Source: a virus
Strand: one strand, 5' to 3'
Length of the DNA: 64,000 nt
Virus record (IMG/VR): IMGVR_UViG_3300025769_000090
Location: 1 to 64,000 of that record
Shown here: one piece after another, positions 1 through 52,984 of the stretch
Layout: each line of letters opens with the position of its first letter
Numbering within the stretch: position 1 is the first letter of the stretch
Notes under the pieces: generated by a model
Seen by the model: only the letters and a program-made list of their open reading frames with translations
What the model was told of the DNA's origin: nothing
The model's database searches: none
Translations under genes and position numbers: made by a program

Positions 1-39
1 AAATATAAAATTTGGGATAGAGACTAATTTTTCGTATCT

Positions 40-57
40 TTCGCTAAGAAAAGCGAA
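40..57 (+). promoter_or_regulatory. short hairpin in leader of first gene
   Basis: A 6-bp perfect inverted repeat (TTCGCT / AGCGAA, loop of six) lies five bases before the ATG at 62. It follows a T-run and GTATCTT at about 29-39. The sequence shows the hairpin. A role in start-site exposure or mRNA stability is only inferred. The upstream promoter region lies mostly outside the window. Confidence 0.3.
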
Positions 58-61
58 TTAT

Positions 62-8945: not shown

Positions 8946-10091
8946 ATGGTCAATATTGACGCTTTATTAAACGAATGGGCGTACAGATGTAAGAAGGGCT
9001 ATCCTGATATGGATAGCCCCTCTGATCTTCGTGTGTTAAATACCATTCTACAAGAACAGGGGATTTCATTATCAGAAACCCAAGAACCAGTTATAGTTGA
9101 ACAAGAGGAAGAAGGACCTAGTAAAAAAGAACTTATTGACCTAATTAATAAAAGTGATTTAAGCCCTAAAGCCCTAACTCGAATTATTAAAGTAGTTAAA
9201 GGTACTGGTTTCCGCACTAAAACAAAAGATCTTTTATCTAAAAATGGTTATACAGAAAAAGACTTTAAGAGTGGTGATGCTGATATAGATCGTATATTAA
9301 GTACTATTACTAATAGTGAGGTAGATGAATTATTTAAATATTTAGAAAATCCTAAAGCATTATCAAGTTTTCCCTCTAGAGGAAATATAATTAGTCAATT
9401 GGGTATTTCATCTAATTTAGCAAAAGATTTAATGGGTATTGAAGGAATTGATGAAGGTGGATCAAATATAGGTAAAATAGAAATATTTTTGGCTCTAGTT
9501 CTTAGCGATGTTGATAATAGAAAAGGAGGAGGTGATTTAAATTGGAATAGTGTAGGTAATTTAGAAATTAAAGGTGCTGGGGGTAGAGCAGGCCAACAAG
9601 GTGGTAGAGGGAATTATGTAAATGGGCAGAATAGAATAGCTGATAAATTTATACCAGAGGGAGAAGCCAGAGAAGAATTTGAATCAGGAGGTGAAAATGT
9701 TTATATGAATTATTGTTTGAAAAATGGCTTTGATTACGTTACTAAAAATAATGGTGATGTTAAAGGGTATATAAGTTTTACCCAAAAATTATTAGATGAA
9801 GCATTCTTTGATAAAGGATTAGCTAAAAAATATTTTAGTAAAACTGAAGATTTTAGAGACCTAGCTGTCATGAGGAATAAAATATTTAAATTAAATATAG
9901 AAGCATACGCTGAAAAAACTAATGTTGATGCTTTTATGTTCGCTAGTGCTAAAACAGGTGAATATGCTCTTATTAATATAGATAAAGTTGGAGAAGCCAT
10001 TGATCAGGGAATAATTAGGACCACAGTAGATCCTAAAAAGGGTTATATGTGGAATAACCCCAATCCTAATATTTACTTAAGTAAAAAATAA
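8946..10091 (+). CDS. uncharacterised protein with possible PD-(D/E)xK nuclease core
   Basis: The product has 381 residues. The N-terminus (NIDALLNEWAYRCKKGYPD) and a helical region lead to GGGDLNWNSVGNLEIKG, where D197, E207 and K209 have the spacing of a PD-(D/E)xK nuclease core. A Gly-rich loop (GGRAGQQGGRG) follows. The C-terminal part is mixed alpha/beta. The nuclease idea rests only on this motif and the predicted strand pattern. It follows the acidic tagged protein by five bases, and could be a packaged or DNA-processing protein. Confidence 0.5.
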   Translation: MVNIDALLNEWAYRCKKGYPDMDSPSDLRVLNTILQEQGISLSETQEPVIVEQEEEGPSKKELIDLINKSDLSPKALTRIIKVVKGTGFRTKTKDLLSKNGYTEKDFKSGDADIDRILSTITNSEVDELFKYLENPKALSSFPSRGNIISQLGISSNLAKDLMGIEGIDEGGSNIGKIEIFLALVLSDVDNRKGGGDLNWNSVGNLEIKGAGGRAGQQGGRGNYVNGQNRIADKFIPEGEAREEFESGGENVYMNYCLKNGFDYVTKNNGDVKGYISFTQKLLDEAFFDKGLAKKYFSKTEDFRDLAVMRNKIFKLNIEAYAEKTNVDAFMFASAKTGEYALINIDKVGEAIDQGIIRTTVDPKKGYMWNNPNPNIYLSKK

Positions 10092-25238: not shown

Positions 25239-26327
25239 ATGGCAACTTATACACAATTTGACGAAAATTTTGACGTTGTAAACGACATATCTAGAGTATT
25301 TTCTAACGCTTGGTCTGGTATTACTCCCAATAATGATTTAGGAGCTAATCATTTTTCTTCTAGCACTCAATACGTAACTGATAATCCTACAGCTAGTGGT
25401 GCGTTCTTTATGGAAGTATATAGTACAGATCCAGACGCTAATCCAACTACGGCAGAAGTACAATATTCTATAGCTTATGGCAGCAGAACGGGAAAAGGAG
25501 GATTACAATTTAATGATGGTGTAGGTGCTGAAAATTTTACTTCTACTAAAGCTATTTATAGTCAGTATAGAAACCTAGTATTTGGTGGAGATGAAACACA
25601 AAATTTTTCATTTAACGGCTACGTTCCTGATGATATTTATGTTATTAATGTAAATAGGGCTAGATATAAAAACGCCCTTAGATTAGGTAATTTGAATCTT
25701 GTTATTTCAGGTGCCACATCAAACCAGCCCCTACATCTTACAGATGATTCAGTTACAACATCTGGATCAGCAAATGCTAATAGAGCAGGTGTAGGAAGAG
25801 AATTTAATTTAGTATCAGGTTCTAATGGAATAAGATTAGGTTCAAGTAACACATATGTAACTGATAGTGGTTCATATGGATTTGTATACCCAGATGCTGG
25901 ATTTATTATTTTAAATGCGGATGCTTTAGACCATAGTGGCTCCGCAGCCGCATTTGCAGCTGGGGGTGGTGGAACTAACCTAGGTACAGTTGTTACTTCA
26001 GACAACGAAGCAAAGAATCCTATTTTGTTACAAGAAGCTTTAAAACTAGGAGGTAGCTTTATATTAGATTCTCAAGAAGATATATCTAGTAAATTTTATT
26101 TCTGCAGAGCTCGAAATTCAGAATTTAACTATTCTACTAATGACTCATTTACTGAAGCCGATGGGACTATAAAATATGATTCTATGATTGATAATCCACA
26201 AGTTTATATTACTACTGTGGGATTATACAATGATAATCAAGATTTATTAGCAGTTGCTAAATTAAGCCAACCTCTTCCGAAAGATTTTACTAAAGAAGCC
26301 CTTATTAAGGTTAAACTAGACTATTAA
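25239..26327 (+). CDS. tail structural protein with shared C-terminal module
   Basis: The 362-residue, beta-rich protein ends in a module (VYITTVGLYNDN, then LLAVAKLSQPLPK) that recurs at the end of the next gene's product. This suggests the two share an attachment or trimerisation end. The middle is rich in Ser, Gly and Asn. The stop overlaps the next start (TAATG). Confidence 0.6.
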   Translation: MATYTQFDENFDVVNDISRVFSNAWSGITPNNDLGANHFSSSTQYVTDNPTASGAFFMEVYSTDPDANPTTAEVQYSIAYGSRTGKGGLQFNDGVGAENFTSTKAIYSQYRNLVFGGDETQNFSFNGYVPDDIYVINVNRARYKNALRLGNLNLVISGATSNQPLHLTDDSVTTSGSANANRAGVGREFNLVSGSNGIRLGSSNTYVTDSGSYGFVYPDAGFIILNADALDHSGSAAAFAAGGGGTNLGTVVTSDNEAKNPILLQEALKLGGSFILDSQEDISSKFYFCRARNSEFNYSTNDSFTEADGTIKYDSMIDNPQVYITTVGLYNDNQDLLAVAKLSQPLPKDFTKEALIKVKLDY

Positions 26328-28075
26328 TGGCTGGTATATTTAAAAAATTCAGTGCGAACGACATAAAAATAACACCTTTTGAAGCCCATAAGCAGTATAA
26401 TACTACTAATTTGGCTTCAATTGGTGCTAGTACTGAGTCTTTAGCTTGGAGTGGGGCTAGTAAAAACACATTTTCTACAGGAAGCAGACTTTACTATCAA
26501 GTAGATAAGCTTTATTATAGAAATTATATTAATGAAAGGGCACATAGATTAGAAATAGATAGTGCTAATTATAAAGTTCAAGAAAGAAGATTATATCAAA
26601 GTGCTAGTTTACTTTCATTAAGCCAAAAGACATTTGGCTCTCAAATTCAGCCAGGAACATTTGAACTCTCAGGATCTAAAGGATCAACCCAATTTAATCT
26701 TAAAGATGATGGGTATGGGAATTTATATGACATAAATTTAGGAAAAGATAATTTTCCCGATGAAAAACATAGAGTATTTTACTTAGCTCCAATTAAAGGT
26801 TTTAAACGTTCTGATTTAACTTTAAATTATGAAACAGGAAATACTTATATAAATACTCCTTTTTCAGGAGGTTATTCTGGTACGATTTTAGATGATTCAT
26901 ATTTCCAAAATAAAGTTACATTTTTTAATAATGCATTTGTAAAATCAGGACAGTCTACAACTGGTTTATTTAATACTCCCTATATAACACAAAATGCTAA
27001 AACTGATTCTAGAATTACTATTAAAAATGCTCCTTATTTAAACTTTAATGAAGATGATTTTGCTATAAGTTTTTATTTCATCCCCGGATCCGATATGCCA
27101 ATAGCTTTATCTTCAACCCCACGATATATTTTAACTAAAGAAGGAGCTCAAGATTCTTTCCCCTTAGGATCAGAAGCAGGAGGAAATTATTCAACAAGCA
27201 CATCTGGAGCATTAGATATTACTACTACACCCGCAGCTAATAGATTCCCATACAGATTAACTTTATCAGGAAGTAATGTTGGGGTTCCTACTAATAATTT
27301 TGCCGCAACTGGTTCTTTAGTATTTGAAAGGTTTGATGGAGATATAAAATCTTCTGTAGCTGGGGTTGTATTTTTAAGCGCGAGTTCAAATGTAAATGTA
27401 CCCATCCATGTACTTGTTCAAAAATCTGGTGATAATTTAGTGATATATAAAAATGGAACCCAAGTTGCAACCAGTTCAGATTTAACAACAGGGACATGTC
27501 AAAATAATAGCGATATAACTATATTTAAAAAGCAAAATCCCGATGGAACATATAGTAGTATTTCTTCCTCGGCTACAGCTGAAGCAGCTTGGGCTGGGCA
27601 ATTATCAGAACAGGGAGACGGATTTGCCATTCAACAATTACAAATGTGGGATAAAGCTTTAACAGAAACAGAAATTCAAATGGTTTCAGAATCATTTACG
27701 GGCACTTATCCTGTAGGTAATTTATTTTATGATAATGGATTTACTATTATTACTCACCCTAAATATATGGATGTATTTAATGGAGGTGAGTTAAATACTT
27801 TAAAATACAAAAATACCCATTTAATTACTGAAAATGAATATCAGTGTAATGTAAAAGAGGAAGAATTCGAATTTACTACTAATAAAACAGCATTAAAAGT
27901 TTCTCCTAATAATGAAGTAGCAGATTTCACAACAGGATCAGCTTTTAAACCGTACGTAACTACAGTTGGTTTATATAATGACAATGGAGAATTATTAGTA
28001 GTAGGAAAATTAGGACAACCAATTAGAAAAAGTAGTGAAACAGAAACTACATTCGTTATAAGATTTGATACATGA
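26327..28075 (+). CDS. tail protein with LamG-like domain and shared C-terminal module
   Basis: The 582-residue product carries a LamG/concanavalin-type beta sandwich near residues 230-460 (DDFAISFYFIPG, then VLVQKSGDNLVIYKNGTQVA and LQMWDKALTETEI, the usual hallmark end). The C-terminal module (YVTTVGLYNDNGELLVVGK) matches the preceding protein. LamG domains bind sugars, so receptor or surface contact is a possible role. It overlaps the GIY-YIG gene by four bases. Confidence 0.65.
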   Translation: MAGIFKKFSANDIKITPFEAHKQYNTTNLASIGASTESLAWSGASKNTFSTGSRLYYQVDKLYYRNYINERAHRLEIDSANYKVQERRLYQSASLLSLSQKTFGSQIQPGTFELSGSKGSTQFNLKDDGYGNLYDINLGKDNFPDEKHRVFYLAPIKGFKRSDLTLNYETGNTYINTPFSGGYSGTILDDSYFQNKVTFFNNAFVKSGQSTTGLFNTPYITQNAKTDSRITIKNAPYLNFNEDDFAISFYFIPGSDMPIALSSTPRYILTKEGAQDSFPLGSEAGGNYSTSTSGALDITTTPAANRFPYRLTLSGSNVGVPTNNFAATGSLVFERFDGDIKSSVAGVVFLSASSNVNVPIHVLVQKSGDNLVIYKNGTQVATSSDLTTGTCQNNSDITIFKKQNPDGTYSSISSSATAEAAWAGQLSEQGDGFAIQQLQMWDKALTETEIQMVSESFTGTYPVGNLFYDNGFTIITHPKYMDVFNGGELNTLKYKNTHLITENEYQCNVKEEEFEFTTNKTALKVSPNNEVADFTTGSAFKPYVTTVGLYNDNGELLVVGKLGQPIRKSSETETTFVIRFDT

Positions 28076-28497
28076 TAATACCAGAAAGTTATGAACAATT
28101 CCCAGAAGGCACATATGGATACGTTTACCAAACAACCCACTTACCTACTGGAAAGAAATATATTGGCAAAAAATCGTTAATATATAATCAAAAGAAAAAA
28201 ATTGGTAAACGTGAATTAGCACTGTGGGAAGGTAAAGGAAGACCACCAGTTTACAAGCAAGTTCAAAAAGAAAGCGATTGGAAAACCTATTATGGTTCTC
28301 ATCAATTTATTAAAGATGAAATCAAAAGTGGTAATCAAGCTGATTTTAAGAGACATATCTTACAATTAGCTTATTCTAAAAAAGAATTAACTTATTTAGA
28401 AAATAAAGCATTATTTACTTTAGGTGTTTTAGAAACCGAAGATTACTTAAACGACAATATTGAAGGAAGATATTTCAAGAAAGATTTTGGCTTTTGA
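28072..28497 (+). CDS. GIY-YIG endonuclease-like protein, SegE-like
   Basis: The 141-residue product has the catalytic core TYGYVYQTTHLPTGKKYIG (GIY-YIG type with YGYVY and YIG) and a downstream YYGSHQFIKDEI segment. It ends with a conserved helical stretch (LTYLENKALFTLGVLETE). It lacks NUMOD-type DNA-binding repeats, unlike the homing enzyme at 41.6 kb. Such SegE-like proteins are widely found in T4-like phages, with uncertain mobility. The start overlaps the previous stop (ATGA), so it is co-translated with a tail gene. Confidence 0.75.
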   Translation: MIIPESYEQFPEGTYGYVYQTTHLPTGKKYIGKKSLIYNQKKKIGKRELALWEGKGRPPVYKQVQKESDWKTYYGSHQFIKDEIKSGNQADFKRHILQLAYSKKELTYLENKALFTLGVLETEDYLNDNIEGRYFKKDFGF

Positions 28498-29470: not shown

Positions 29471-32400
29471 ATGAAAATAGCTCTTTTACCAGGTGGATTT
29501 AAACCACCTCACTTAGGACATTATAATATGGCAAAATATCTTGCAGATTTTGCTGATAAAGTTATAGTAAGAATTGGTCAAAAAGAAAGAGAAGGTATAG
29601 GAGCACCACTAGCTCTTGAAATTTGGAATCTTTATAAAGAATCTGATCCTGACCCTAGAGCTAAAAAACTTATAATAAGCGTTGCACAATCACCATCCCC
29701 CATAAAAGATGTATATGATTTTGTAGAAACTACTGCACCTGAAGGATCTACAGTTATCCTTGGTTTAGGTGAAAAAGATGCTACTGATGGACGTTATAAT
29801 AGTATCCCTAAATTTGCAGAACCACGCAACATTAAGGCAGAAATAGAATTAGTACCACCTCAAGCTGGTGGTATTTCAGGTACTCGCATGCGTGAGATAG
29901 TTAAATCTAATAGTAAGATTGAATTTTTTAAATATATCCCAGAGTTCTTACCTGAAGAAATTAAAGAAGAAATTTGGACTAAACTTTTAGATACTACCCT
30001 ACCTACTGAAGTAGATGAAATAATGGGTGGTACTATGAATAGAGAAGAAATGGCTAAACATAATAAAAATATGCAAAAACTTCGCCAATTCCTTTCTAAA
30101 CAAGGGGATCAAATGACCCAAATCCCTACTAAATTAACAAAAGGGTTAAGAAGAAAGTTATATGAAAAACTCGGAATCCAAAGAGGAACAATCGAAAGTG
30201 AAGTACAATTCTTATCTAGGGAAATACTTGAACTTTTTAAAGACAATATCGGAAAACCCTACGAAACCGGGGGTATAGAAGGGTATATTGAAGGGGGTGA
30301 AGTTGTATTAGAATATGAAATCGACCTTAAATTTATACCATCCGACAGTATACCAGGATTTAGTTTTGATGCTTCTGCAGATGACGAAAACATCGAAATT
30401 GAAATAACCTATAACCCTAATTCATTCCCTGATGAATTTAATAGTCTTAATGCAGAATTAAAAGAAACTTTACGCCATGAAATTGAACATATAACTCAAT
30501 TTGGGTTTGAACTTAAAGGTGGTTTTGAAGAATACAAAGGTTCTATCCCATTTCACAAGTATCTTCAATTATCACATGAAATTCCAGCGTTTGTTAGAGG
30601 GTTATACAAACGCGCTAAAGTTAAAAAAATGTCACTTAAAGATACTTTTAATGAATTTTTTGATGACTATATAGATAGCTTTAATAACCCCCAAGAAATA
30701 GAACAAGTTAGGACTGCGTGGTCTAATTGGGCACGTGAAAATTTACCCGATGCCCAATTAGACGAAAACTATCCACCGTATAAAGCAAATCAAGTTCAAC
30801 AAACTAGATATAGGGCAAGTGATACATTTACAAATGATCCTAAAAAGGCTAAAAAATTAGGATATTTAGAAGATGATGCAGTAGATGAAGGAGATACCTA
30901 TGAAAAAATGGCTGCTAAAGGTAAAAAAGCGGGCAACTTAAAACAGGGTACTGTCAGAAAACGTTTAAAAATTCCTAAAGGTGAAAAAATACCTCTTTCT
31001 TTAATTAATAAAGAATTATCTCGCCTTAAAAAAATGGAAAAGAGAAGTGCTAAAAATCAAAAATATTATAAAGCATTAACGTTAGCTAAAACCTTAAAAA
31101 CTACAACCCATAAAGAAAATATAGATCCTAAAGCTCAAAAGAAGCATAAGGGTAAATCTGCTCCCTATGGTTCAGCTTATGAACCTGTAAAAGAAGGAGA
31201 CCCTAAAATAGGTACAGGTAAAAAGCCTAAAGGATCAGGGCGTCGTTTATATACCGATGAAAATCCTAAAGATACTGTAAAAGTTAAATTTAGCACTAGG
31301 CAAGATATAGTTGATACTTTATCTAAAAAATCATTTAAGGCTAAATCTCACGCACGTCAATCACAAATTATTAACTTAATTCACCAACGTGTAAGAGCAG
31401 CATATAGTAGAGCTAAAGACCCAGCTGTTAAAAAACGCTTAAAATCTGGGTTAGATTATATTACTAAGCGTAAGGATGCATCAAAAAGAAAAACACAAAG
31501 GATGAGAAAAGAAGGATTATTTTCTAAAGAATGGTGGTTAGATGTAATCACTGAAGAAATATTAAGCGAAGGAGGTGCAGCTGGACACATGGCTCACCCA
31601 TTTGATTTACCAAACGTTAAAACAGGTAAAGATTTAATTAAATCGTTTGAACAAGCTGCCGATAGTTTGAAAAAAACACCCGGTAGCGTCAAGATAGATG
31701 GCGTAAATGCGTCAATTAGATTGGTAAATTTCGACGGTAAACGTGAGTTCGCCATGGATCGCGGCTCAAAAAAGGCACTTGATTTACGTGGCGTTACTAA
31801 AGCTGACTTAGAAGATAGATTTGGTGCTGGTCACGGTATGATTAAATCTGGTGGTGACGTATTAGACATATTTAATGCAGCTTTACCTTCAATCCAAGAA
31901 GAATTAAATGCATTAGGATTAATTGATGATCCTAATATTATGTTTAATATGGAATACGTTAGTGGTAAATCTAATGTTCAAGACTATGGTAAAAATTTCT
32001 TAGCAATCCATGGCCTTTTAAAAGTAGAAACTAAAGAAGTACAAGGTGCTCGTAAAATGTTAACTAAAAGAATAACATCTGAAAAACTATTTGCACAAAG
32101 TGATATGGACGAGTTACTTAAAAAGTTAGAGCCATTTGCTAAAAAGAAAGGATTCGAAATATACGGTTCAGTACCTACAACATTTACTAAAGACCCTGAT
32201 TTTAAATCTGCACTAAATACTAGATACACTATTGATACAGCTGAAGGTGATCAAACTAAAACATTAGCTCAATGGTTAAATGGTGTTACTAATATCCCCA
32301 AAACAGATCGCCTAAAAATAAACATTGAAGAAACCGACTCTATTAAAGACGTAGGTGCCCTAAGTAAACAAGTATACTTTGCTGTATTTGGTGGTGAAAA

Positions 32401-32635
32401 TGTAGATTCACTATTTAGTGATGAACAAGAAGTTAATAAAGCTATCCAAGGAGCTACTACATATCTCGCAACTGAAAAATTAGGTGACGCAATATTAGAT
32501 GTACTTGATTCGCCTATGGGTTCAGTTAATGATCATGAGGGTGTAGTTATTAGAGACGAGAAAATTTCCCCACGTCCATTTAAAATTACAGGTAAATTTA
32601 TAACCGGAGGTGTATCCTCAGATTTCCAGAAATAA
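29471..32635 (+). CDS. tripartite protein: HxGH nucleotidyltransferase, HEIEH zinc-motif region, ligase-fold C-terminus
   Basis: The product has 1054 residues. Residues 1-165 form an adenylyl/cytidylyltransferase domain (GGFKPPHLGHY, the HxGH motif, and ISGTRMR, the (S/T)xxR motif). HEIEH lies at 336-340, with a further HEI near 368, a gluzincin-like zinc site. A basic Lys-rich linker with modules of unknown type spans about 430-690. From about 700 there is a covalent nucleotidyltransferase (ATP-dependent ligase) fold: K741-I-D-G (motif I), FNMEYVSG and FLAIHGLL (III/IIIa-like), HEGVVIR near 1022-1027 (IV) and K1038 (V-like). E700 before Gly (ILSE|G) fits the prohead protease rule and would free the ligase part. 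The motifs are visible; the substrates are unknown. RNA repair or DNA sealing are the main alternatives. Confidence 0.8.
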   Translation: MKIALLPGGFKPPHLGHYNMAKYLADFADKVIVRIGQKEREGIGAPLALEIWNLYKESDPDPRAKKLIISVAQSPSPIKDVYDFVETTAPEGSTVILGLGEKDATDGRYNSIPKFAEPRNIKAEIELVPPQAGGISGTRMREIVKSNSKIEFFKYIPEFLPEEIKEEIWTKLLDTTLPTEVDEIMGGTMNREEMAKHNKNMQKLRQFLSKQGDQMTQIPTKLTKGLRRKLYEKLGIQRGTIESEVQFLSREILELFKDNIGKPYETGGIEGYIEGGEVVLEYEIDLKFIPSDSIPGFSFDASADDENIEIEITYNPNSFPDEFNSLNAELKETLRHEIEHITQFGFELKGGFEEYKGSIPFHKYLQLSHEIPAFVRGLYKRAKVKKMSLKDTFNEFFDDYIDSFNNPQEIEQVRTAWSNWARENLPDAQLDENYPPYKANQVQQTRYRASDTFTNDPKKAKKLGYLEDDAVDEGDTYEKMAAKGKKAGNLKQGTVRKRLKIPKGEKIPLSLINKELSRLKKMEKRSAKNQKYYKALTLAKTLKTTTHKENIDPKAQKKHKGKSAPYGSAYEPVKEGDPKIGTGKKPKGSGRRLYTDENPKDTVKVKFSTRQDIVDTLSKKSFKAKSHARQSQIINLIHQRVRAAYSRAKDPAVKKRLKSGLDYITKRKDASKRKTQRMRKEGLFSKEWWLDVITEEILSEGGAAGHMAHPFDLPNVKTGKDLIKSFEQAADSLKKTPGSVKIDGVNASIRLVNFDGKREFAMDRGSKKALDLRGVTKADLEDRFGAGHGMIKSGGDVLDIFNAALPSIQEELNALGLIDDPNIMFNMEYVSGKSNVQDYGKNFLAIHGLLKVETKEVQGARKMLTKRITSEKLFAQSDMDELLKKLEPFAKKKGFEIYGSVPTTFTKDPDFKSALNTRYTIDTAEGDQTKTLAQWLNGVTNIPKTDRLKINIEETDSIKDVGALSKQVYFAVFGGENVDSLFSDEQEVNKAIQGATTYLATEKLGDAILDVLDSPMGSVNDHEGVVIRDEKISPRPFKITGKFITGGVSSDFQK

Positions 32636-32970
32636 TGAAATTAAAAGATATATTAAACGAAATTACAGGAACTAAAGTTAAGGTAAAAGATCTTACTTTT
32701 AATATGTTAAAAAAAGTTTTCTCCTCAAAATATCAAAACCTAAGTAAAAGTGATACACGATCTATATATAAAGATCCTGTTTACTTACCCCAAGGTGATG
32801 GAAGTTCTAAAGGTATTATTGATGATGAGGCTTTAAAAGCTTATAAAGAATATATTATAAAAAGGGTGGGAAACGTTGAAATTACTTTAGATCCTACTAA
32901 AAATAAAGCCACTATAGAGGACCAAAATTTTAAAGATAGAGAATCTCGTATAGGAAAAGGTATTAATTAA
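32635..32970 (+). CDS. small protein with LKDILNE leader
   Basis: The 111-residue product begins MKLKDILNE then I, the same leader as the protein at 52628 (MIKLKDILNE). This resembles T4 capsid-targeting sequences (MKTYQEFIAE|A), which end in (L/I)xE and are removed by the prohead protease. The rest is mixed and basic. It overlaps the tripartite gene by one base. Packaging into the head is inferred from the leader only. Confidence 0.55.
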   Translation: MKLKDILNEITGTKVKVKDLTFNMLKKVFSSKYQNLSKSDTRSIYKDPVYLPQGDGSSKGIIDDEALKAYKEYIIKRVGNVEITLDPTKNKATIEDQNFKDRESRIGKGIN

Positions 32971-34174: not shown

Positions 34175-34454
34175 GCCTTATACTGATATAATAGAGGCAG
34201 ACGGCACAACAAGTCGTCTGTTTTCTGCTTCAACTAAGCCAGAAACTTTAAAGTGGCATATGGATGATGAAGATAGAATTATTACAGTTCTTGATAAAAC
34301 TAATTGGCAATTTCAATTTGAAGATCAATTGCCGGTTCCTTTAAATAAGCCTATATTTATTAAGAGACATCAATGGCATCGTCTTATAAAAGGAGACGGT
34401 CCATTAATAATTAGTATCTATAAACATGCAAGAACGCAAACTAACAAAACCTGA
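34146..34454 (+). CDS. small cupin-like phage protein, TTG start likely
   Basis: I choose the TTG at 34146 (reads LQHLPQLSGKPYTD), which overlaps the upstream stop by 29 bases. The frame also has an ATG at 34053, but that would lie 122 bases inside the upstream gene. The product of about 102 residues contains WHMDDEDRIITVLDKTNWQF and IFIKRHQWHRLIKG, a conserved phage pattern with the strand order and His residues of a small cupin-like fold. The function is unknown. Its end overlaps the next gene by 29 bases. Confidence 0.6.
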   Translation: MQHLPQLSGKPYTDIIEADGTTSRLFSASTKPETLKWHMDDEDRIITVLDKTNWQFQFEDQLPVPLNKPIFIKRHQWHRLIKGDGPLIISIYKHARTQTNKT

Positions 34455-35190
34455 GGCTAAAGCCAAAGAGCGTATAGTTAAAGATTTAAAGGGGGCTAAA
34501 GCTGACTTTAAAAAACGTTACGGTAAAGATGCTGAGGCCGTTATGTATGCTACTGCTACTAAACGTGCTAAAAAAGTAGCCGAAGATGGTTGTGGGTGTG
34601 GGTGTGGAGATAGTGAAATAAACCATACTATAAACGAACTAATTGAAGATTTAGTATATGAAGAACTATGTAAGCGAGGTAAAGCTTATATAGCTGCTCG
34701 TAAAAGGGCGGGAGAAAAATCTTCTGCTTACTTATCTGGACGTGCTGTAAAAGTATGTAAAGGACAAATGAAAGGAGCAGGTGGTAAAAGAAAAAAATCT
34801 TATAGAAAAAAAAGACGTAAAAACGAATCTTTATATAATCAATTAAAACCACAAGTATTAAACCACTTAGAAGAATTATTTAATGATCCCTATTTTGCTA
34901 TATTAGCAGAATACAATGTTTCTGAAGGTAGTATAGACGAAAGTTTAAAAAATTGGTTTAAAAAAGAAGATTGGGTTCGTATTGATACCCAAGGAAATAT
35001 TGCTGGTAAGTGTGGTACAATGCCTAAAGGTAAAGCAACACAACGTTGTTTACCTCGTGCTAAAGCTAATTCACTTACTAAAGCCCAACGTAGAGCTACA
35101 GCTAGAAAAAAAGTTAGAGGTAGTAAAAAGGGTAAACAATTTGTTAGAAACACTAAAAAAGCTAAAGTTAGCTTTAAAAAGAAAAAATAA
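34426..35190 (+). CDS. basic Cys-rich protein with DUF6321-like module
   Basis: The 254-residue product has a CGCGCGD cluster near residue 49 that mirrors the one in the protein at 33560. A KKRRKNES-type basic stretch follows. SIDE before Ser (near residue 168) precedes a module (LKNWFKKEDWVRID, then KATQRCLPRAKANSLTKAQR) and a very basic tail. The SIDE|S step fits the protease rule. The product looks nucleic-acid binding and could be an internal head protein. Start is the ATG at 34426; the next gene begins one base after its stop. Confidence 0.6.
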   Translation: MQERKLTKPEAKAKERIVKDLKGAKADFKKRYGKDAEAVMYATATKRAKKVAEDGCGCGCGDSEINHTINELIEDLVYEELCKRGKAYIAARKRAGEKSSAYLSGRAVKVCKGQMKGAGGKRKKSYRKKRRKNESLYNQLKPQVLNHLEELFNDPYFAILAEYNVSEGSIDESLKNWFKKEDWVRIDTQGNIAGKCGTMPKGKATQRCLPRAKANSLTKAQRRATARKKVRGSKKGKQFVRNTKKAKVSFKKKK

Positions 35191-36535: not shown

Positions 36536-36974
36536 TTTAACCGAACAAAAACTAAGACGCAAAATACGTCAAATCCTTAAAGAGGAAAGAGAGTATCAAT
36601 TACGTCAATTATCCCCTGGGGCACATGATGCTTTAGGCCCAGGTACCTTAGGTATCCCCCCATCTGCTGTAGTTGACGTTAAAATCATTAAAGCACCTAA
36701 ACCAATTTTTAAGTGTTTTCTTGATAATGGTCAGGCATTTAACTTGATCGATAACGGAGAATACATGCAAGCTGACATTAATCGTATTTTATTTGATTTA
36801 GATAGAGACGATGATATTAATGGTGCAAAATATGAGCTTAAAAAGCTAATGCAACAAGGTAGCATTAAATCAGATGAGGAGGAAGAAGAAACTGATACCT
36901 CATCTGCTGAACCCGACTTCGCTACTGACGAACCCGCAGATGAACCCGTAGACGAACCTGAAGGAGATGAATAA
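36528..36974 (+). CDS. hypothetical protein with leader-like N-terminus and acidic tail
   Basis: The 148-residue product begins MNNLTEQKLRRKIRQILKE, an amphipathic helix ending in ILKE like other tagged proteins here. It ends in a Asp/Glu/Pro-rich tail (DEPADEPVDEPEGDE). It overlaps both neighbours by eight bases. It is probably a small virion-associated or chaperone-like protein. The role is unknown. Confidence 0.5.
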   Translation: MNNLTEQKLRRKIRQILKEEREYQLRQLSPGAHDALGPGTLGIPPSAVVDVKIIKAPKPIFKCFLDNGQAFNLIDNGEYMQADINRILFDLDRDDDINGAKYELKKLMQQGSIKSDEEEEETDTSSAEPDFATDEPADEPVDEPEGDE

Positions 36975-37362
36975 TAATCCTGAATTCCAACAAGCCCTAA
37001 CAGGTATCTATAAAGATGGTGTTAAAAAATTTAATATCCGTACTACTCCTAAAGTAGTACTACGTAAAGATGCTGAAAATGGAGCAATGACTTTAGGCCG
37101 TACTGCATATTATGATCCTAACGATTTAACTATTGTTCTTTATACATCAAATCGCCACCCTAAAGATATACTTAGATCATTTGCTCACGAATTAATTCAC
37201 CATGTACAAAATGAACGTGGCGATTTAAATTTAGGAGATTCTAGTGATCCCCAATATGCTCAAAATGATGACCATTTAAGAAAAATGGAAATGGAAGCAT
37301 ATCTAGAAGGTAATATGCTTATGAGAGATTTTGAAGACAATTTTAAGTATCAACAAGAATAA
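36967..37362 (+). CDS. HExxH metallopeptidase-like protein
   Basis: The 131-residue product has HELIH at residues 74-78 (SFAHELIHHVQ) followed by an acidic helix with E108/E110 (KMEMEAYLEGN), which could be the third zinc ligand of a gluzincin. Small phage proteins of this shape are known but of unclear substrate. It is the last gene of the 29-37 kb group and is followed by a terminator-like hairpin. Confidence 0.7.
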   Translation: MNNNPEFQQALTGIYKDGVKKFNIRTTPKVVLRKDAENGAMTLGRTAYYDPNDLTIVLYTSNRHPKDILRSFAHELIHHVQNERGDLNLGDSSDPQYAQNDDHLRKMEMEAYLEGNMLMRDFEDNFKYQQE

Positions 37363-40425: not shown

Positions 40426-41550
40426 ATGAATAAAGCTGATATCAAGCAAATTATATTTGAAGAAATTGAAGCCGCTATTAAGGAGCTAAACGAAAACATG
40501 TCTCCTGAAGATTTAGCAGCAGATTCTCGTCCTGAAGAAGACGACATTACACCTCCAGGTATCGAAGATATGTCACCAGATCCTATATTTGGTGCTGATC
40601 CTTCATATGTTGAAGAGGAAGAATTATCTGAGATGCCCCGCACCTCAAATAAATTCAAACTCAGCCAGGATGCTGATATGAAGCAAGTCCTCCAATTTAT
40701 GCAACGCGTAAATAACAGACTTAAAACATTCAAATCACCAGGACAAAAGCGCCCTAAAAAGCGTTTTACACCTGAAGAAATGAAATCGTTAGCAACAGCA
40801 ATGCTCAACCCAGAAGGATTTACTTCTAAAGACGTAATTGCTGTTACCTCATATAACAGCCCCGCTCAAGCAAATAAATTTTTAAAAGCGCTTGAAATGA
40901 AGGGCTTAATTACATTAACCTCACAACTTAAAAAAGCACAAGAACCAGCTCGCGATCCTGATGCCCCTGAAACCAGAGGTAGAAAACGCAGAGATGCTGA
41001 ATTTGATATGTCAGATGATCCTACAATGATGGACTTCGGGGATTTTGATGATTTAGATTTAAGTGACCCACTAGCAGAAACTAAAGCAACCATGACAAAC
41101 TTAGAAAAGTACATTAAACAGCAAATCAAAGAAGCTAAAAATCCATTAGCTAAAAAGATGAAAGAAATTGAAAATCAAGGACGCGTTGCAGCGCTTGAAA
41201 CTAAATTAGCTGCTATTGCCGAAATGATTGAAGAAACAGAAGGTCGTTTAACTCGTATTGACGAAGATAACGAGTTTAGAGACATGATGGATAAAAACGC
41301 TGTTAAAGAAGTTCGTAAGCAACTTAAAGAACTTGAAAAAGCTAAAGGTAAGCTTGAAAAAGAAAGAGCTAAATTAGAAGGTAAAGTCGAAAAAAAAGAA
41401 GTAGTTGATGAAGACTTGCCCGTAGCTGAAGACGCAGTAGAAGAAGATGCTATAGACGCAGCTATTGATGAAGTTGAATTAGAAGAAGATAACTTTGCAC
41501 TTAATGAATCAGTTAAGCGTATGCAAAAATTAGCTAACCTAAAAGGCTAA
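40426..41550 (+). CDS. acidic/helical protein with winged-helix-like part and scaffold-type C-terminal tag
   Basis: The 374-residue product begins MNKADIKQIIFEEIEAAIKE, a tag-like helix. A winged-helix-like segment follows (RFTPEEMKSLATAMLNP, then FLKALEMKGLITL), then acidic stretches and a coiled coil (residues 225-320). The end ALNE then SVKRMQKLANLKG matches the scaffold and the protein at 8533. LNE|S fits the prohead protease rule. It may be a scaffold-associated core protein or bring a nucleic-acid-binding domain into the head. Confidence 0.65.
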   Translation: MNKADIKQIIFEEIEAAIKELNENMSPEDLAADSRPEEDDITPPGIEDMSPDPIFGADPSYVEEEELSEMPRTSNKFKLSQDADMKQVLQFMQRVNNRLKTFKSPGQKRPKKRFTPEEMKSLATAMLNPEGFTSKDVIAVTSYNSPAQANKFLKALEMKGLITLTSQLKKAQEPARDPDAPETRGRKRRDAEFDMSDDPTMMDFGDFDDLDLSDPLAETKATMTNLEKYIKQQIKEAKNPLAKKMKEIENQGRVAALETKLAAIAEMIEETEGRLTRIDEDNEFRDMMDKNAVKEVRKQLKELEKAKGKLEKERAKLEGKVEKKEVVDEDLPVAEDAVEEDAIDAAIDEVELEEDNFALNESVKRMQKLANLKG

Positions 41551-46827: not shown

Positions 46828-46968
46828 ATGCCAAGAAAAATTAACGCATTTGAATTTATTAATGATGGACATAAAGTGTCCCGTCCTGGTGTACATGCTA
46901 AAACTAAGCATAGTAACCATAAAAATTCAAAAAATTATAAAAAAACCTATAGAGGACAAGGACGATGA
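46828..46968 (+). CDS. very small basic protein
   Basis: This 46-residue ORF (PRKINAFEFINDGHKVSRPG at the start, then Lys/His-rich to the end) lies between the capsid-motif gene and the protease gene. Its stop overlaps the protease start by four bases (ATGA), and the gap would otherwise be empty. The charge suggests nucleic-acid or scaffold binding, as with T4's small core proteins. Coding is supported by the start, the overlap and position. Confidence 0.65.
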   Translation: MPRKINAFEFINDGHKVSRPGVHAKTKHSNHKNSKNYKKTYRGQGR

Positions 46969-47570
46969 AACAATTACTTATAGAACACATGCCATTTAAA
47001 GTAGATAAACTCTTAGTTGAGCAATCTATTAAAGAGAATAAACCACTTAGAGTAGGTGGTATTATCCAAAGAGCTGGTGTTAAAAACCATAATGGTAGAA
47101 TCTATGAGCAAGAAATTCTTGAAAGAGAAATTAAAAAATACATTGATGGTCCTGTTAAAGAAAAAAGAGCTTTAGGTGAATTAGACCACCCAGATTCTTC
47201 CGTTATTAATTTAAATAATGTATCCCATAATATAGTAGAAATTACTATGAAAGGAAATGATGTACATGGTGTTATAGAAATACTAACAACACCCGCGGGG
47301 AATATTTTAAAAGAGTTATTCCGTTGTGGTGTTACAGTAGGAATATCTTCTAGAGGTATGGGTTCAGTAGAAGAAAATTCAGATGGAATATTAATGGTTC
47401 AAGAAGATTTTGATCTTCTTTGTTTTGATATGGTATCAACCCCATCAACCCCTGGTGCTTATATGTCCCCCATGAATGAAGGAGTAAACACCCAGGTTAA
47501 AAATTATACTAAAGTACATAACGTTATTCGCGATATTATCTGCAATAACACAGGTATGTGTCAGTGTTAA
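46965..47570 (+). CDS. 21: prohead maturation protease, T4 gp21-like
   Basis: The 201-residue product is a herpesvirus/phage-type serine protease. H75 lies in GELDHPDSS, the nucleophile Ser in VGISSRGMG (S128-S129), and LCFDMVSTPSTPGAY is a typical downstream segment. It should cleave scaffold and capsid precursors after (L/I)xE. Its position just before the scaffold and capsid genes matches T4. It overlaps the small basic gene by four bases. Confidence 0.9.
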   Translation: MKQLLIEHMPFKVDKLLVEQSIKENKPLRVGGIIQRAGVKNHNGRIYEQEILEREIKKYIDGPVKEKRALGELDHPDSSVINLNNVSHNIVEITMKGNDVHGVIEILTTPAGNILKELFRCGVTVGISSRGMGSVEENSDGILMVQEDFDLLCFDMVSTPSTPGAYMSPMNEGVNTQVKNYTKVHNVIRDIICNNTGMCQC

Positions 47571-47938: not shown

Positions 47939-48970
47939 ATGGCTAAAGAAATTTTAAAAGAGGCTATTGCCGACGCAAAAGCCGTTAGAGAAGTTGCTTT
48001 AGAAAATGCTAAAATGGCATTAGAAGAAGCATTCGACTCTAAAATCAAAAACATGCTTTCTGCTAAATTAGCAGAGGAGCTTGAAGAAGACGTCGAACTC
48101 GAAGAAGAGTACATTGAGGAGGAAGCGGAAGCTACCGACGAAATGTACGGTTCTAAAAAGCGCATGATGCAAGACGACGACGACGATGTTAAAAAAGAGG
48201 AAGTTGAGCTCGAAGAAGAACTCGAAGAAGACCTCGATGAAGAAATCAACCTTGATGAACTCATGGCTGAACTTGAAGAAATGTCTATATACGATGAAGA
48301 TGAAGATGGAGACATGAAAAAAGAAGAAGCTGAGTTAGAAGAGGGAGAAGACCAACTCGAAGAAGAAGCGGAGCCGGTCGATGAAAATGTAAAGGATGCT
48401 ATGGATGCCATTAAAAAAGCAGCCAAAGAAGCAGGCAAAACCGTTACTGATTACCTATTAGGTAAAAAATTCATTGATTCTGGTATCACTACTACTAAGA
48501 GAGAGTCTGTTGATTTCGACATTGATTCTTTGGTTTCTGAAATTGAATCTGAACTAGAAGAAGGTAAGAAAAAAGATGAAAAAAAAGACGATGAGGATAA
48601 AAAGATGAAAGAAGACCTTAATGAGGCTCTCGAAACTGTTGATTCTCTTAAGTCTACTATTTCTGAAATGAACCTTCTCAACAGCAAACTCCTCTACTGC
48701 AACAAACTCTTCAGAGCTAACTCACTAACAGAAGCTCAGAAAGTAAAGGTGGTTGACGCCTTGGACAAAGCATCTACAGCAGGTGAAGCTAAATTGGTAT
48801 TTGAAACACTTCAAGAATCATTTGACTTTACTGGTGTAGAAAAAAGAGCGATTAAGGAAGGTTTAGCACGTGCTTCAAAGCCCGTCGGAACTGCTCCTAA
48901 AAATGTTATAACGGAATCCGTTGACGAGACAGTGTCAAGATTCCAAAAACTTGCAAACATTAACAAATAA
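47939..48970 (+). CDS. 22: prohead scaffold/core protein, T4 gp22-like
   Basis: The 343-residue product is dominated by Glu/Lys-rich acidic helices, as in T4-type scaffold proteins, and lies between protease and capsid genes. The N-terminus (AKEILKEAIADAKAVREVA) is helical. The C-terminus reads VITE then SVDETVSRFQKLANINK, like the ends of two other acidic proteins of the window. ITE before Ser fits the protease rule. Scaffold is destroyed by the protease during maturation. Confidence 0.8.
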   Translation: MAKEILKEAIADAKAVREVALENAKMALEEAFDSKIKNMLSAKLAEELEEDVELEEEYIEEEAEATDEMYGSKKRMMQDDDDDVKKEEVELEEELEEDLDEEINLDELMAELEEMSIYDEDEDGDMKKEEAELEEGEDQLEEEAEPVDENVKDAMDAIKKAAKEAGKTVTDYLLGKKFIDSGITTTKRESVDFDIDSLVSEIESELEEGKKKDEKKDDEDKKMKEDLNEALETVDSLKSTISEMNLLNSKLLYCNKLFRANSLTEAQKVKVVDALDKASTAGEAKLVFETLQESFDFTGVEKRAIKEGLARASKPVGTAPKNVITESVDETVSRFQKLANINK

Positions 48971-48981
48971 TTTTAGAAAAC

Positions 48982-50679
48982 ATGAATGTTAACTCATTAT
49001 TAGAGGGCGCTTCACCACTTCAACACCAACAAGCTGAATCAGTTAAGTTGGCAGGTAAGTGGGAAAAGTCCGGTCTCTTAGAGGGTCTTAATGCCCACGA
49101 GAGCGAAAAAGCTAACATGGCTGTTCTCCTCGAGAACCAAGCCAGACAGTTAGTAAACGAAGCTAACCAGGTTGGTACTGTTACTAGCATTACTACTGGT
49201 CAAAGTGAAGCATGGGCGGGCGTTGCTCTCCCATTGGTAAGAAGAGTATTCGGTGAAATCGTTGCTAAGGACCTCGTGTCTGTTCAACCAATGAACTTAC
49301 CTTCAGGTCTCATCTTCTACCTAGATTTCCAATATGGTCAAGCTCAGCCTGGATTTGCTGAAAACGATAGCCTTTCAGCTGCGTCTACTGACAAGACTAA
49401 AACAGAATTACCATCGGTAGGACAAGGTAAAGGTCTTTACGGTGCAGGTAGATTCGGTTACTCAATTAACGAAGTAGATTCTGCTGCCCTTGCAATTACA
49501 GGTGGTCTTGCGGGTGACAATACACTTACTGGTGTAGGCACACTTGTTGCTGCAGGTACAGCTTCTTTTGCCCCATTAACTGCTGCTGATTCAGCATCTG
49601 TAAACTTTGATACTGAATTTATTAATTCTGTTGCATTAACTACTATTGACCAAATTAGAGTTCACAAAGACTCTCTTACTGACTTTGATCCTGAGGGTAT
49701 TAGAGCATTTGAGGTATTAAATGGTACTGCAAACGTAACCGTTTATAACCAATTTACTGCTTTTGACGGTACTTACATTGATTTCTTTGTTGATAACAGT
49801 GATGGTACTTTAGATTTTGATGATAAAGACGCTGATCTTGTTATTAGATACCAAAAAGGTCCAGATAACCTCAACGACAGAGGTGATTTCCAAGACGAAA
49901 CAGCTCCAGCAGCAAGCACAGTATCTGCTCTTGATATCCCAACTATCGATGTTAAACTCAACAGTTCAACTGTTACAGCGAAAACTCGTAAGTTAAAGGC
50001 TCAGTGGACACCAGAATTCGCTCAGGATTTGAATGCTTACCATAGCATTGATGCTGAAGCGGAATTAACGTCTATCCTTTCTGAGTACATCTCAATGGAA
50101 ATTGACCTCGAATTACTCGACATGTTGATTAGAAACGCTGATACTACTAACCACTGGAGTGCTAAGGTTGGTAAAGAAGTTCTTGACACAGGTGCTGAAA
50201 CTACTACTAGTGACCAGTACTACACTAAGATGTCTTGGTTCCAGACTTTGGGTGTTAAACTCCAGTCTGTTAGCAACACTATTCACCAGAAGACCCTTAG
50301 AGGCGGTGCAAACTTCCTCGTTGTTTCTCCAACTGTAAGCACAGTCTTAGAATCTATTCCTGGATTTGCTGCTGACTCACCCGGTGATTCTAACAAGTAC
50401 GCAATGGGTGTTCAAAAGATTGGTGCTATTAACTCACGTTACACTGTCTACAAGAACCCATACATGACTGAAAACGTAATCTTAATGGGCTATAAGGGTA
50501 ACCAGTTCCTCGAAACAGGTGCTGTATTTGCTCCATACATCCCATTAATCATGACTCCCCTCGTGTACGATCCTGTATCGTTCACCCCAAGAAAGGGTAT
50601 CATGACTCGTTACGCTAAGAAAATGGTAAGACCTGACTTCTATGGTAAGGTATTCTGCCACGATTTGAACTTAGTCTAA
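48982..50679 (+). CDS. 23: major capsid protein, T4 gp23-like
   Basis: The 565-residue product has an N-terminal delta region with repeated L-L-E-G segments (residues 6-9 and 32-35) and a predicted cleavage at E60|A61 (LVNE|ANQVG), the T4 LTE|A site equivalent. The HK97-fold core follows: SEAWAGVALPLVRRVF, KDLVSVQPMNLPSG, and a C-terminal KGIMTRYAKKMVRPDFYGK. Codon use is noticeably more GC-rich than in neighbouring genes, as expected for a highly expressed gene. It is followed by a strong terminator. Confidence 0.93.
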   Translation: MNVNSLLEGASPLQHQQAESVKLAGKWEKSGLLEGLNAHESEKANMAVLLENQARQLVNEANQVGTVTSITTGQSEAWAGVALPLVRRVFGEIVAKDLVSVQPMNLPSGLIFYLDFQYGQAQPGFAENDSLSAASTDKTKTELPSVGQGKGLYGAGRFGYSINEVDSAALAITGGLAGDNTLTGVGTLVAAGTASFAPLTAADSASVNFDTEFINSVALTTIDQIRVHKDSLTDFDPEGIRAFEVLNGTANVTVYNQFTAFDGTYIDFFVDNSDGTLDFDDKDADLVIRYQKGPDNLNDRGDFQDETAPAASTVSALDIPTIDVKLNSSTVTAKTRKLKAQWTPEFAQDLNAYHSIDAEAELTSILSEYISMEIDLELLDMLIRNADTTNHWSAKVGKEVLDTGAETTTSDQYYTKMSWFQTLGVKLQSVSNTIHQKTLRGGANFLVVSPTVSTVLESIPGFAADSPGDSNKYAMGVQKIGAINSRYTVYKNPYMTENVILMGYKGNQFLETGAVFAPYIPLIMTPLVYDPVSFTPRKGIMTRYAKKMVRPDFYGKVFCHDLNLV

Positions 50680-51473: not shown

Positions 51474-52628
51474 ATGGCAACTATTTCTATTTGGCCCGGC
51501 TCCGCTTCATTTAATGATACTACAAATCCAACCCCTTTTGGTTTTTATGACGCCGATAGTGATTTTACTTCTTCGGCTGATCAAGTAGCAACTTGGTGTG
51601 CTCAAAGATTAGGGTATCCTATAGTAGATATTGAACTACAAGCAGTAAACTTTTTTACAGCTTTTGAGGAAGCTGTAACTACATATGCCCAATATGTCTA
51701 CCAATATAAAATTATAGAAAATATTGGAACCTTTGAAGGATCTACTACAGGTAGTAATTTAAACGATCAATATGTACAACCTAACTTAGGCAACACCGTA
51801 GCTATTACTGAACAATATGGAACAGAGGCAGGTACTGGTGGAAATATAACATATAAAACTGGTAGTATTAATATAACTGCAGGTAAACAAAAATATTCTT
51901 TAGATAATTTATTTACTAATGTTAGTGAATCAGGCAATAATATAGAAATTAAAAAAATCTACCATTATGCACCTGCGGCAATTGTAAGGTACTTTGACCC
52001 ATATGCAGGTACAGGTACAGGTATACAATCGTTAATGGAAACATTTGGTTTTGGTAATTTTTCACCTGGCGTAAACTTTATGTTAATGCCTACTTATTAT
52101 GATATATTAAAAGTTCAAGCTATTGAATTTAATGATCAAATAAGAAAATCAGCATATAGTTTTGAATTATTAAATAATGACCAATTAAGAATCTTCCCTA
52201 TACCTAAAAGAAGCGAAACTTTATATTTTGACTATGTAGTTAAAAGTGATAGAAATAACCCTATTAGGAATACTGATACTGGTTTAGTTACTAATGTATC
52301 TAATGTTCCATATACTAATATAAGTTATACTACTATTAATACCCCGGGCAGGCAGTGGGTATTCCGTTATACGTTAGCATTAGCTAAAGAGATGTTAGCT
52401 AGTGTAAGAGGTAAATATTCAACAGTTCCTATTCCTGGTTCTGAAGTAACTACTAATGCTGGAGATTTAAGAAGTGAAGCAGCTTCTGAAAAAACTGCTC
52501 TTATTGACGAACTTAAATCAATGCTTGAAGAATCTTCAAGAGTTAAATACATGGAAAGAGACGCCCAAATAGCACAAAATGCTCAAGATACTTTTACTAA
52601 AGTACCCTATCCAATATATATCTACTAA
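51474..52628 (+). CDS. 13: neck / head-completion protein, gp13-like
   Basis: The 384-residue product has CAQRLGYPIVDIELQAVNFFTAFEEAV in its first 70 residues (split here into the LGYPIVDIEL core and FFTAFEEAV helix), a pattern of gp13-type neck proteins. A beta-rich middle follows (FDYVVKSD). It ends with a helix (LALAKEMLASVRGKY, then DELKSMLEESSRV). Gp13 with gp14 closes the portal after packaging and accepts the tail. It opens the neck operon and overlaps the next gene by one base. Confidence 0.7.
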   Translation: MATISIWPGSASFNDTTNPTPFGFYDADSDFTSSADQVATWCAQRLGYPIVDIELQAVNFFTAFEEAVTTYAQYVYQYKIIENIGTFEGSTTGSNLNDQYVQPNLGNTVAITEQYGTEAGTGGNITYKTGSINITAGKQKYSLDNLFTNVSESGNNIEIKKIYHYAPAAIVRYFDPYAGTGTGIQSLMETFGFGNFSPGVNFMLMPTYYDILKVQAIEFNDQIRKSAYSFELLNNDQLRIFPIPKRSETLYFDYVVKSDRNNPIRNTDTGLVTNVSNVPYTNISYTTINTPGRQWVFRYTLALAKEMLASVRGKYSTVPIPGSEVTTNAGDLRSEAASEKTALIDELKSMLEESSRVKYMERDAQIAQNAQDTFTKVPYPIYIY

Positions 52629-52984
52629 TGATTAAATTAAAAGACATATTAAACGAAGTTATTCAACTATATTCTGTTGATGTAGTGATAGTATCTGATA
52701 AGGATGCAAACTTCACTGATATATTAGATGGAATGAGGGCCACTAGAAAAGTTACTATCATTAATGCTAACACTTCAGATGAATTAGAACTAAAAAACCG
52801 AAAAAGAACAGATGGGAAAGCAGTAAGAACAGCTACGTTAAAATTTGCATCAGGAAAAGATCCAAAACAAGATTTAGAATTTTTAAAAACTACTATGTTA
52901 AGTAGTGATAAAGGTGATCCTGAAATGAGGATTAAAGGGTTACAAGCAATAATTTTTAAACCCGAATCCTTAACTCGACTCTAA
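52628..52984 (+). CDS. small protein with MIKLKDILNE leader
   Basis: The 118-residue product begins MIKLKDILNE then V, almost identical to the leader at 32635. The remainder is alpha/beta with a central VVIVSDKDANFTDIL strand-helix. LNE is the expected cleavage signal. It lies between neck genes gp13-like and gp14-like, and it overlaps both by one base. Packaging in the head is inferred from the leader. The function is unknown. Confidence 0.6.
   Translation: MIKLKDILNEVIQLYSVDVVIVSDKDANFTDILDGMRATRKVTIINANTSDELELKNRKRTDGKAVRTATLKFASGKDPKQDLEFLKTTMLSSDKGDPEMRIKGLQAIIFKPESLTRL

Follow-up and report, generated by a model that had tools for sequence, protein, structure and literature searches.

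A candidate head-packaged effector polyprotein with nucleotidyltransferase, zinc-motif and ligase-like modules in a T4-superfamily phage

The DNA analyzed here, which we call the window, comprises positions 1 to 64,000 of the IMG/VR virus record IMGVR_UViG_3300025769_000090, and our subject is one long gene within it that we propose to encode an effector polyprotein. A first-pass annotation had described this gene as a single protein joining an HxGH nucleotidyltransferase, a HEIEH zinc-motif region and a ligase fold with KxDG, EGVVIR and a further lysine, and had suggested that it might be a polyprotein delivered and split. The description held residue for residue in one open reading frame (ORF), with HLGH at residue 14, ISGTRMR at 135, HEIEH at 336, KIDG at 741, EGVVIR at 1023, KITG at 1038 and an LSE ending at residue 700. 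Small extra modules between the main domains, an internal stretch, LFSKEWW...LSE, and a gp21-type protease gene at 47037-47474 went beyond that annotation, and we divided the protein into eight modules, M1 to M8 (Table 1).

Table 1. Modules of the proposed polyprotein and other genes of the window; a slash after E marks a proposed joint, pI is the isoelectric point and K+R the share of lysine plus arginine.
Feature	Coordinates	Residues	Strand	Remarks
Whole ORF, proposed effector polyprotein	29471..32635		+	ATG start, single open frame, 1054 aa
M1, HxGH and ISGTRMR nucleotidyltransferase (NMNAT/PPAT/cytidyltransferase-like)	29471..30019	1-183	+	Ends VDE/
M2, basic module GGTMNREEM...KLYE/	30020..30166	184-232	+	pI 10.4
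M3, HEIEH module with downstream invariant E	30167..30766	233-432	+	Ends LDE/; putatively zincin-like
M4, NYPPYK...GYLEDDAVDE/	30767..30889	433-473	+	Ends VDE/
M5, basic module GDTYEKMA...VKE/	30890..31195	474-575	+	28% K+R, pI 10.2
M6, basic module DPK.GTGKKPKGSGRRLY...	31196..31510	576-680	+	30% K+R, pI 11.0
M7, acidic stretch EGLFSKEWWLDVITEEILSE/	31511..31570	681-700	+	Proposed internal capsid-targeting sequence and gp21 site
M8, ligase-like, putative covalent nucleotidyltransferase domain	31571..32632	701-1054	+	K741, E1023, K1038; 354 aa
Separate gene, leader MVNIDALLNE/	8946..10091		+	Residues 47-378 match L022 polyprotein module, 40% identity, E 2e-67
Separate gene	34426..35190		+	Residues 60-253 match L016 polyprotein module, 71%, E 2e-75
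Separate HELIH gene	36967..37362		+	Residues 23-126 match L132 polyprotein module, 46%, E 1e-25
Next gene, start MKLKDILNE/	32635..32970		+	Leader T4-like capsid-targeting by appearance
Gene with nearly identical leader, MIKLKDILNE/	52628..52984		+	
gp21-type prohead protease (Peptidase_S77, PF03420)	47037..47474 in ORF 46965-47570		+	E 7.8e-32; proposed cutter
Major head protein	48982..50679		+	phrog_138, E 7e-74

Single-sequence family searches of the whole protein were near blank (Pfam CTP_transf_like at 14.6 bits, NCBIfam weak), and because they gave only a weak cytidyltransferase-like N-terminus, the work moved to relatives. Named isolates were not directly usable, since tblastn against 50,697 phage records gave five records matching the whole protein and, with the threshold relaxed to E<=1, still none matching the C-domain. 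Scanning IMG/VR with the C-domain gave at least 411 coding stretches, the best 80 of which were retained for analysis, and the set was enlarged by scans with the N-terminus, DUF6267 and distant C-domains and by comparing the C-domain with bacterial genome contigs, in which it occurred at two loci. The ORFs around the 80 matches mostly had an N-terminal nucleotidyltransferase, a C-terminal ligase-like domain and a middle of highly variable length; one, L030, was a ligase-like domain without other domains. A motif scan sorted 208 complete ORFs, which are redundant by contig, into 46 module orders, of which one is empty because the first-methionine rule had cut into a domain. They include the ligase-like domain alone, the nucleotidyltransferase before or after it, DUF6267 alone or ahead of the nucleotidyltransferase, and the nucleotidyltransferase followed by several modules and then by the ligase-like domain or DUF6267. 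M4, M5 and M6 each recur in several orders, and an M6-like stretch was found by tblastn in Pelagibacter phage HTVC033P (50.7% over query residues 573-642). Hence the triple of the first-pass annotation is real as one of the 46 orders and is not a fixed unit: the end domains recur and the middle is exchanged. Among the cargo modules of the relatives, SET and DUF192 are Pfam matches; we take others by eye to be HAD (with only a sub-threshold DUF2608 match), HNH, YHYT/ART-like, Pol-beta (L115) and GNAT (L044), and the GNAT label of L018 is a sub-threshold Pfam match. Three separate genes of the window also match modules of relatives' polyproteins (Table 1).

When the upstream sequences were sorted by context, an xE motif was seen to end just ahead of each module regardless of the upstream content. 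In an anchored count, for which anchors and window were picked after seeing these sorted sequences, 71 of 78 distinct contexts from six module types had an [LIVM]xE ending 0-3 aa ahead of the module. By module, the site was present in 17/18 contexts for the ligase-like domain, 12/12 for DUF6267, 10/12 for M5, 14/16 for M6, 4/6 for M4 and 14/14 for M2. The nucleotidyltransferase domain had it in 0/13 contexts (71/91 with this row included), because a few residues lie between leader and anchor (for example MNLGEWLVEQIITE/DTNIKQIIAVY) and some copies are leaderless. Edges of BLAST matches among 79 non-redundant proteins lay within 3 aa of [LIV]xE in 27.2% of cases versus 9.3% at random (maximum 12.1% in 200 draws); this test is noisy, many edges being internal to domains, and the anchored one is cleaner.

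The flanks of the ligase-like domain (123 unique) show the pattern most directly. [LIVM]xE/GG was present at 79 of 80 internal flanks and [LIVMF]xE/GG at all 31 leaders at gene starts, so that 110 of the 111 flanks possessing upstream sequence have an xE site; the remaining 12 flanks are leaderless, the gene starting exactly at M/GG. Separate genes accordingly begin MITFKQFLLE/GGVAGHM, MKTFKQYYNTILNE/GGAAGHM, MLNLQRYIYLFE/GGQAGHM or MKSFKQFIINE/, and in the other group M/GGAAGHM. DUF6267 follows the same pattern, reading MKNFKLYFEHYLELIEE/AKANT when alone and ...WWKEQLTEVITE/TKANT when fused. L072 has the sole internal ligase-like flank without xE. In this ORF (L072 6552-9026, also L069 and L073) a segment that by eye is HNH-endonuclease-like lies at an LLTE/GGAA joint, which is partly repeated.

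The joints look like sites of the T4 head protease gp21 (L/I-x-E/), which cleaves behind L/I-X-E and trims from internal proteins the short capsid-targeting sequences that load them as cargo (PMC9026906). The window encodes a gp21-type protease between the portal and major head protein genes. PF03420 was also detected in 13 of the 29 related records chosen, some of which may be fragments: 8 of the 10 records reaching 50 kb or more, and all 3 reaching 100 kb or more. On this comparative evidence we consider it likely, at a probability of about 0.76, that the protein is an effector polyprotein which a T4-superfamily phage packages in its head and cuts with its prohead protease; cleavage, packaging, injection and catalysis are all inferred. 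This reading accounts most simply for joints, leaders, leaderless forms, the protease gene and module traffic. The suggestion of a polyprotein delivered and split has thus gained strong comparative backing from conserved joints and leaders.

Linker shuffling is common, and some joints are imperfect, as might be expected if the protein were an ordinary, uncut cytoplasmic enzyme for RNA repair or NAD chemistry whose acidic flexible linkers recombine and whose [LIV]xE motifs are an effect of composition. Linker windows slightly farther upstream argue against this: at 4-7, 8-11, 12-15 and 16-19 aa the motif occurs in 18, 6, 9 and 5 of 78 contexts (5 to 18, versus 71). Moreover, the leaders of separate genes stop at the joint residue itself, and leaderless genes start exactly there. 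We regard an uncut enzyme as quite unlikely.

Under the proposed scheme, the polyprotein would be loaded into the prohead core late in infection, probably via targeting segments such as LFSKEWWLDVITEEILSE. Leaders exist in separate-gene relatives, and the internal M7 is their proposed counterpart, a candidate targeting segment for the leaderless window protein; the M7 motif was counted 105 times among the complete (redundant) ORFs that were scanned, and in every case an [LIVM]xE followed no more than 25 aa downstream. During head maturation the gp21-type protease would cut after [LIV]xE at E183, E232, E432, E473, E575 and E700. The released products would be the HxGH nucleotidyltransferase, the zinc-motif domain, basic peptides and the ligase-like covalent nucleotidyltransferase, which would leave the head together with the DNA and go to work within the first minutes. 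Lysines of T4 internal proteins touch packaged DNA (PMC3012670), and from this likeness and their strong basicity it is a fair guess that M2, M5 and M6 bind DNA.

Several observations weigh against a head-packaged, cleaved polyprotein. A targeting leader of 10-20 aa was looked for at the N-terminus of the window protein and none was seen, MKIALLPGGF being the start of a folded domain, which leaves the loading of this protein a guess. The end of M6 reads RKE/G, a non-canonical joint between M6 and M7, and [LIVMF]xE occurs 22 times in the whole protein, 7 of them in residues 1-170, that is, also inside folded domains. Seven of the 78 contexts miss the site; six of these keep the E (with K, K, Y, Y, Y and A at P3) and the seventh is L072 with its inserted ORF segment. 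The contexts are also not fully independent by descent. The gp21 gene was not found in 16 of the 29 related records, mostly short fragments and including two above 50 kb (73 and 57 kb). Finally, a cytidyltransferase was found in S-CREM2 virions, and the authors of that study remark that such proteins were perhaps not separated from virions on purification (PMC10665884).

An alternative cutter would be M3 itself. Polyvalent proteins (Iyer et al. 2017, PMC5512222) carry shuffled disparate domains in one polypeptide, include zincin-like motifs and are proposed to be injected, all as in the window protein, which likewise combines at least two domains of differing activity. Zincins are their commonest domain and are proposed autoproteases (PMC5512222), and M3 combines HExEH with a downstream invariant E: both H and both E of the motif and the later E are invariant in 21 aligned copies. 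The zinc-motif region of the first-pass annotation is therefore well conserved, whereas its identity as a metallopeptidase is unproven. Its model (pLDDT 84) gave weak and mixed fold matches, namely the HExxH oxygenase 8s5f at Z 4.7, oligopeptidases at Z 3-4 and the metallopeptidase 4l7a at a Foldseek E of 0.14, and a zincin metallopeptidase is a suggestion. Processing by M3 instead of gp21 appears very improbable: this fold is unconfirmed, the same joints are kept in most module orders, which are without HExxH, and they fit the specificity of the protease type encoded elsewhere in the genome. Polyvalent proteins differ from the proposed system in that Iyer et al. attribute processing to zincins or to assemblin-like peptidases fused to them and not to gp21-type joint sites; in their main text "ligase" is absent, and "prohead" occurs once, in a reference.

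We compared the ligase-like domain with 30 others at 19-61% identity to it. Twelve residues are invariant in all 31 sequences (K741, D743, G744, N746, E828, E1023, G1024, V1026, K1038, T1040, G1041 and F1043), as is an N-terminal GHMxHPF motif. Loss of K741 in homologues, which the first-pass annotation had named as evidence that would tell against it, was not seen, K741 and K1038 being kept in 31/31. An AlphaFold2 model of M8 (pLDDT 88, pTM 0.83) gave RNA ligases as the best Foldseek rows against the PDB, with the archaeal RNA ligase 2vug on top at E 4.4e-3 and none passing E 0.001. VIA-align placed T4 Rnl1 (5tt6) first, with a root mean square deviation of 3.9 over 175 aligned residues and a Z of 7.8, where the tool warns below Z 8; ligases made up most of the 50 listed rows. 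Sequence profiles were less responsive. Pfam RNA_ligase (PF09414) scored the C-domain at 15.4 bits (E 0.021), under the gathering score of 27 bits, with weak matches in 8/27 and 5/31 members of two C-domain alignments (A1 and A6), and a C-domain profile gave only chance matches among PDB sequences. With hhalign, the comparison with Rnl2 was not significant (E 0.24 for A1, 0.14 for A6), the A6 alignment setting KIDGVNxS against KIHGTNFS of Rnl2. Against DUF6267, E was 0.037 and 0.035 over the motif I region only, with 0.43 for the N-domain as negative control; DUF6267 (PF19782) had no match in the window protein at E<=1 and none listed for members of A1 or A6, and matched L110 and others. The C-domain thus resembles T4 RNA ligases 1 and 2 and RNA editing ligases in the order KxDGxN, EGxV and K and in its best PDB fold matches. 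It differs from these ligases in its invariant GHMxHPF, and its profile is not significantly similar to Rnl2 or to PDB sequences. Its motifs suggest common descent with Rnl2 or DUF6267, though the latter, if related at all, is so only distantly. Of the proposed ligase fold, then, the conserved motifs stand and the fold matches remain sub-threshold; motif conservation in 31 diverse sequences is the stronger argument that M8 may perform covalent nucleotidyl transfer. We also considered LigA, the NAD-dependent DNA ligase, whose nicotinamide mononucleotide the N-domain might recycle; by eye we saw no segment before motif I of what we take to be the Ia type. Two uncultured-virus proteins in BFVD, A0A218MMM0 (cytidyltransferase-like, 947 aa) and A0A218ML49 (SET-domain, 971 aa), have C-domains 64% and 62% identical to that of the window and bear domain-based names only.

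The N-terminal nucleotidyltransferase of the first-pass annotation was recovered: a profile of M1 matched PPAT and NMNAT structures in the PDB (best E 1e-7), and M1 also matched phrog_395 (E 1e-6); single-sequence Pfam and NCBIfam matches, TIGR00125 (E 7e-4) among them, were under cut-off. In an alignment of 12 N-domains, the second H of HxGH never varies, its first H and its G are kept at 90% or more, and the window has HxGH intact. Motifs and profile match together support M1 as a HIGH-type, NMNAT/PPAT-like nucleotidyltransferase. PFG[RKQ]HH replaces PPHLGH in the nucleotidyltransferase domains of short two-domain relatives (L031, L034-L055, L060-L080 type), where the first catalytic histidine of HxGH seems to be replaced.

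This GxHH in place of HxGH in one nucleotidyltransferase subfamily, the strongly basic M2, M5 and M6, and the fact that core proteins are gp21 substrates (PMC9026906) could also point to a polyprotein whose main part is played in the head core or in DNA compaction, with a degenerate, structural ligase relative as its C-domain. The twelve invariant residues, which include K-x-D-G-x-N, a motif-IV-type EG and a motif-V-type K and persist down to 19% identity, make a structural role of this kind unlikely. The N-domain could serve dinucleotide-cofactor chemistry such as NAD+ restoration, an assignment we make tentatively; for the ligase-like domain we suggest, somewhat more speculatively, that it may repair the ends of cleaved RNA. 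Both would suit an effector injected early, because T4 RNA ligase repairs transfer RNAs cut by host defence, according to the rnlA annotation, and some phages are thought to restore NAD+ via HIGH-type adenylyltransferases (PMC9503650).

Parallels exist in cyanophages. A cytidyltransferase was detected in purified S-SM1 virions (PMC3037559) and in those of S-SZBM1, where it was the sole enzyme named (PMC9146016); together with the S-CREM2 finding, these detections speak for a head-packaged protein. The cyanophage genes for DUF6267 (T4-GC71) and cytidyltransferase (T4-GC190) lie next to each other, and in S-PM2 they are partly fused. The pairing of a HIGH-type nucleotidyltransferase with a KWDG/EGxV domain recalls the window protein; unlike there, the two are separate genes in Syn9 and P-HM2. 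The Syn9 cytidyltransferase gp184 opens MKKFSAFLSE/A, and Syn9 gp186 has LTFKQLSE at its start and LTFKQFNE inside. DUF6267-like sequence occurs in 465 of the 50,697 phage records, and phrog_455 (764 positions) covers both DUF6267 and the cytidyltransferase; a search of the open-licence literature found no papers on DUF6267. In S-PM2p138/p139 (L123 3947-5726), DUF6267 extends over two ORFs, the second half fused to the cytidyltransferase, as a frameshift or a true split.

T4 internal proteins and Alt share with the proposed system the L/I-x-E rule, short N-terminal leaders and phage-variable injected cargo (PMC9026906, PMC3012670). The cargo described in these papers consists of single genes with one leader each, whereas the window protein links many modules, with sites inside the chain. 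The T4 scheme as those papers give it assigns each internal protein a leader of its own and does not include a polyprotein of several effectors that the head protease would separate, and searches of the PMC open-licence library listed no description of gp21-cut effector polyproteins. We see an even chance that the window protein reflects a general cargo system of T4-superfamily phages, in which prohead-protease-cleaved polyproteins with internal capsid-targeting helices carry enzymes and peptides slotted between xE/ joints and exchanged with leader-bearing genes. The recurrent end pair (HIGH-type nucleotidyltransferase plus ligase-like domain or DUF6267) would then amount to a new nucleotidyl-transfer system that is injected by cyanophages, marine Bacteroidota-type phages and rumen phages alike. 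If so, xE/ joints would mark the starts and ends of mature injected effectors in many "hypothetical" marine phage proteins, giving expression boundaries and a cargo list (nucleotidyltransferase, two ligase-like families, SET, DUF192, HExxH and others), and the injected content of T4-like marine phages would become directly addressable by mass spectrometry on existing isolates.

The host is inferred to be a marine Bacteroidota, from a Flavobacteriales-labelled contig with a relative and from Flavobacterium phage matches. We also counted toward this the tail of ORF 2724-6392, which we take to resemble a sorting domain. A distant ligase-like gene occurs on a contig of 410 kb (L122 6874-9562) that bears the label uncultured Firmicutes and is in IMG/VR as well (L238). 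This gene and two neighbours open with targeting-type leaders (MKSLIQYISE, MKSLKQFINE and MKSITQYLKE), and the contig is probably a large phage with the same leader scheme.

Elsewhere in the window, the small genes at 32635-32970 and 52628-52984, 20 kb apart, have the leader KLKDILNE in common. An LNESVxRFxKLANIKG-like C-terminal tail is common to the ORFs at 8533-8940, 40426-41550 (by regular expression) and 47939-48970 (ESVDETVSRFQKLANINK, by eye). In the first two it directly follows an LNE-type site and is possibly a C-terminal head-core targeting tail. The ORF at 28072-28497 is GIY-YIG SegE-like (Pfam E 7e-24) and matches PHROG 447, whose label "NAD synthetase" is probably wrong. Two adjoining ORFs at 25239-28075 have the C-terminal stretch Y[IV]TTVGLYNDN in common; the second weakly matches the second domain of Mtd (E 2.5e-4), and we read them as a tail-fibre or variable protein pair.

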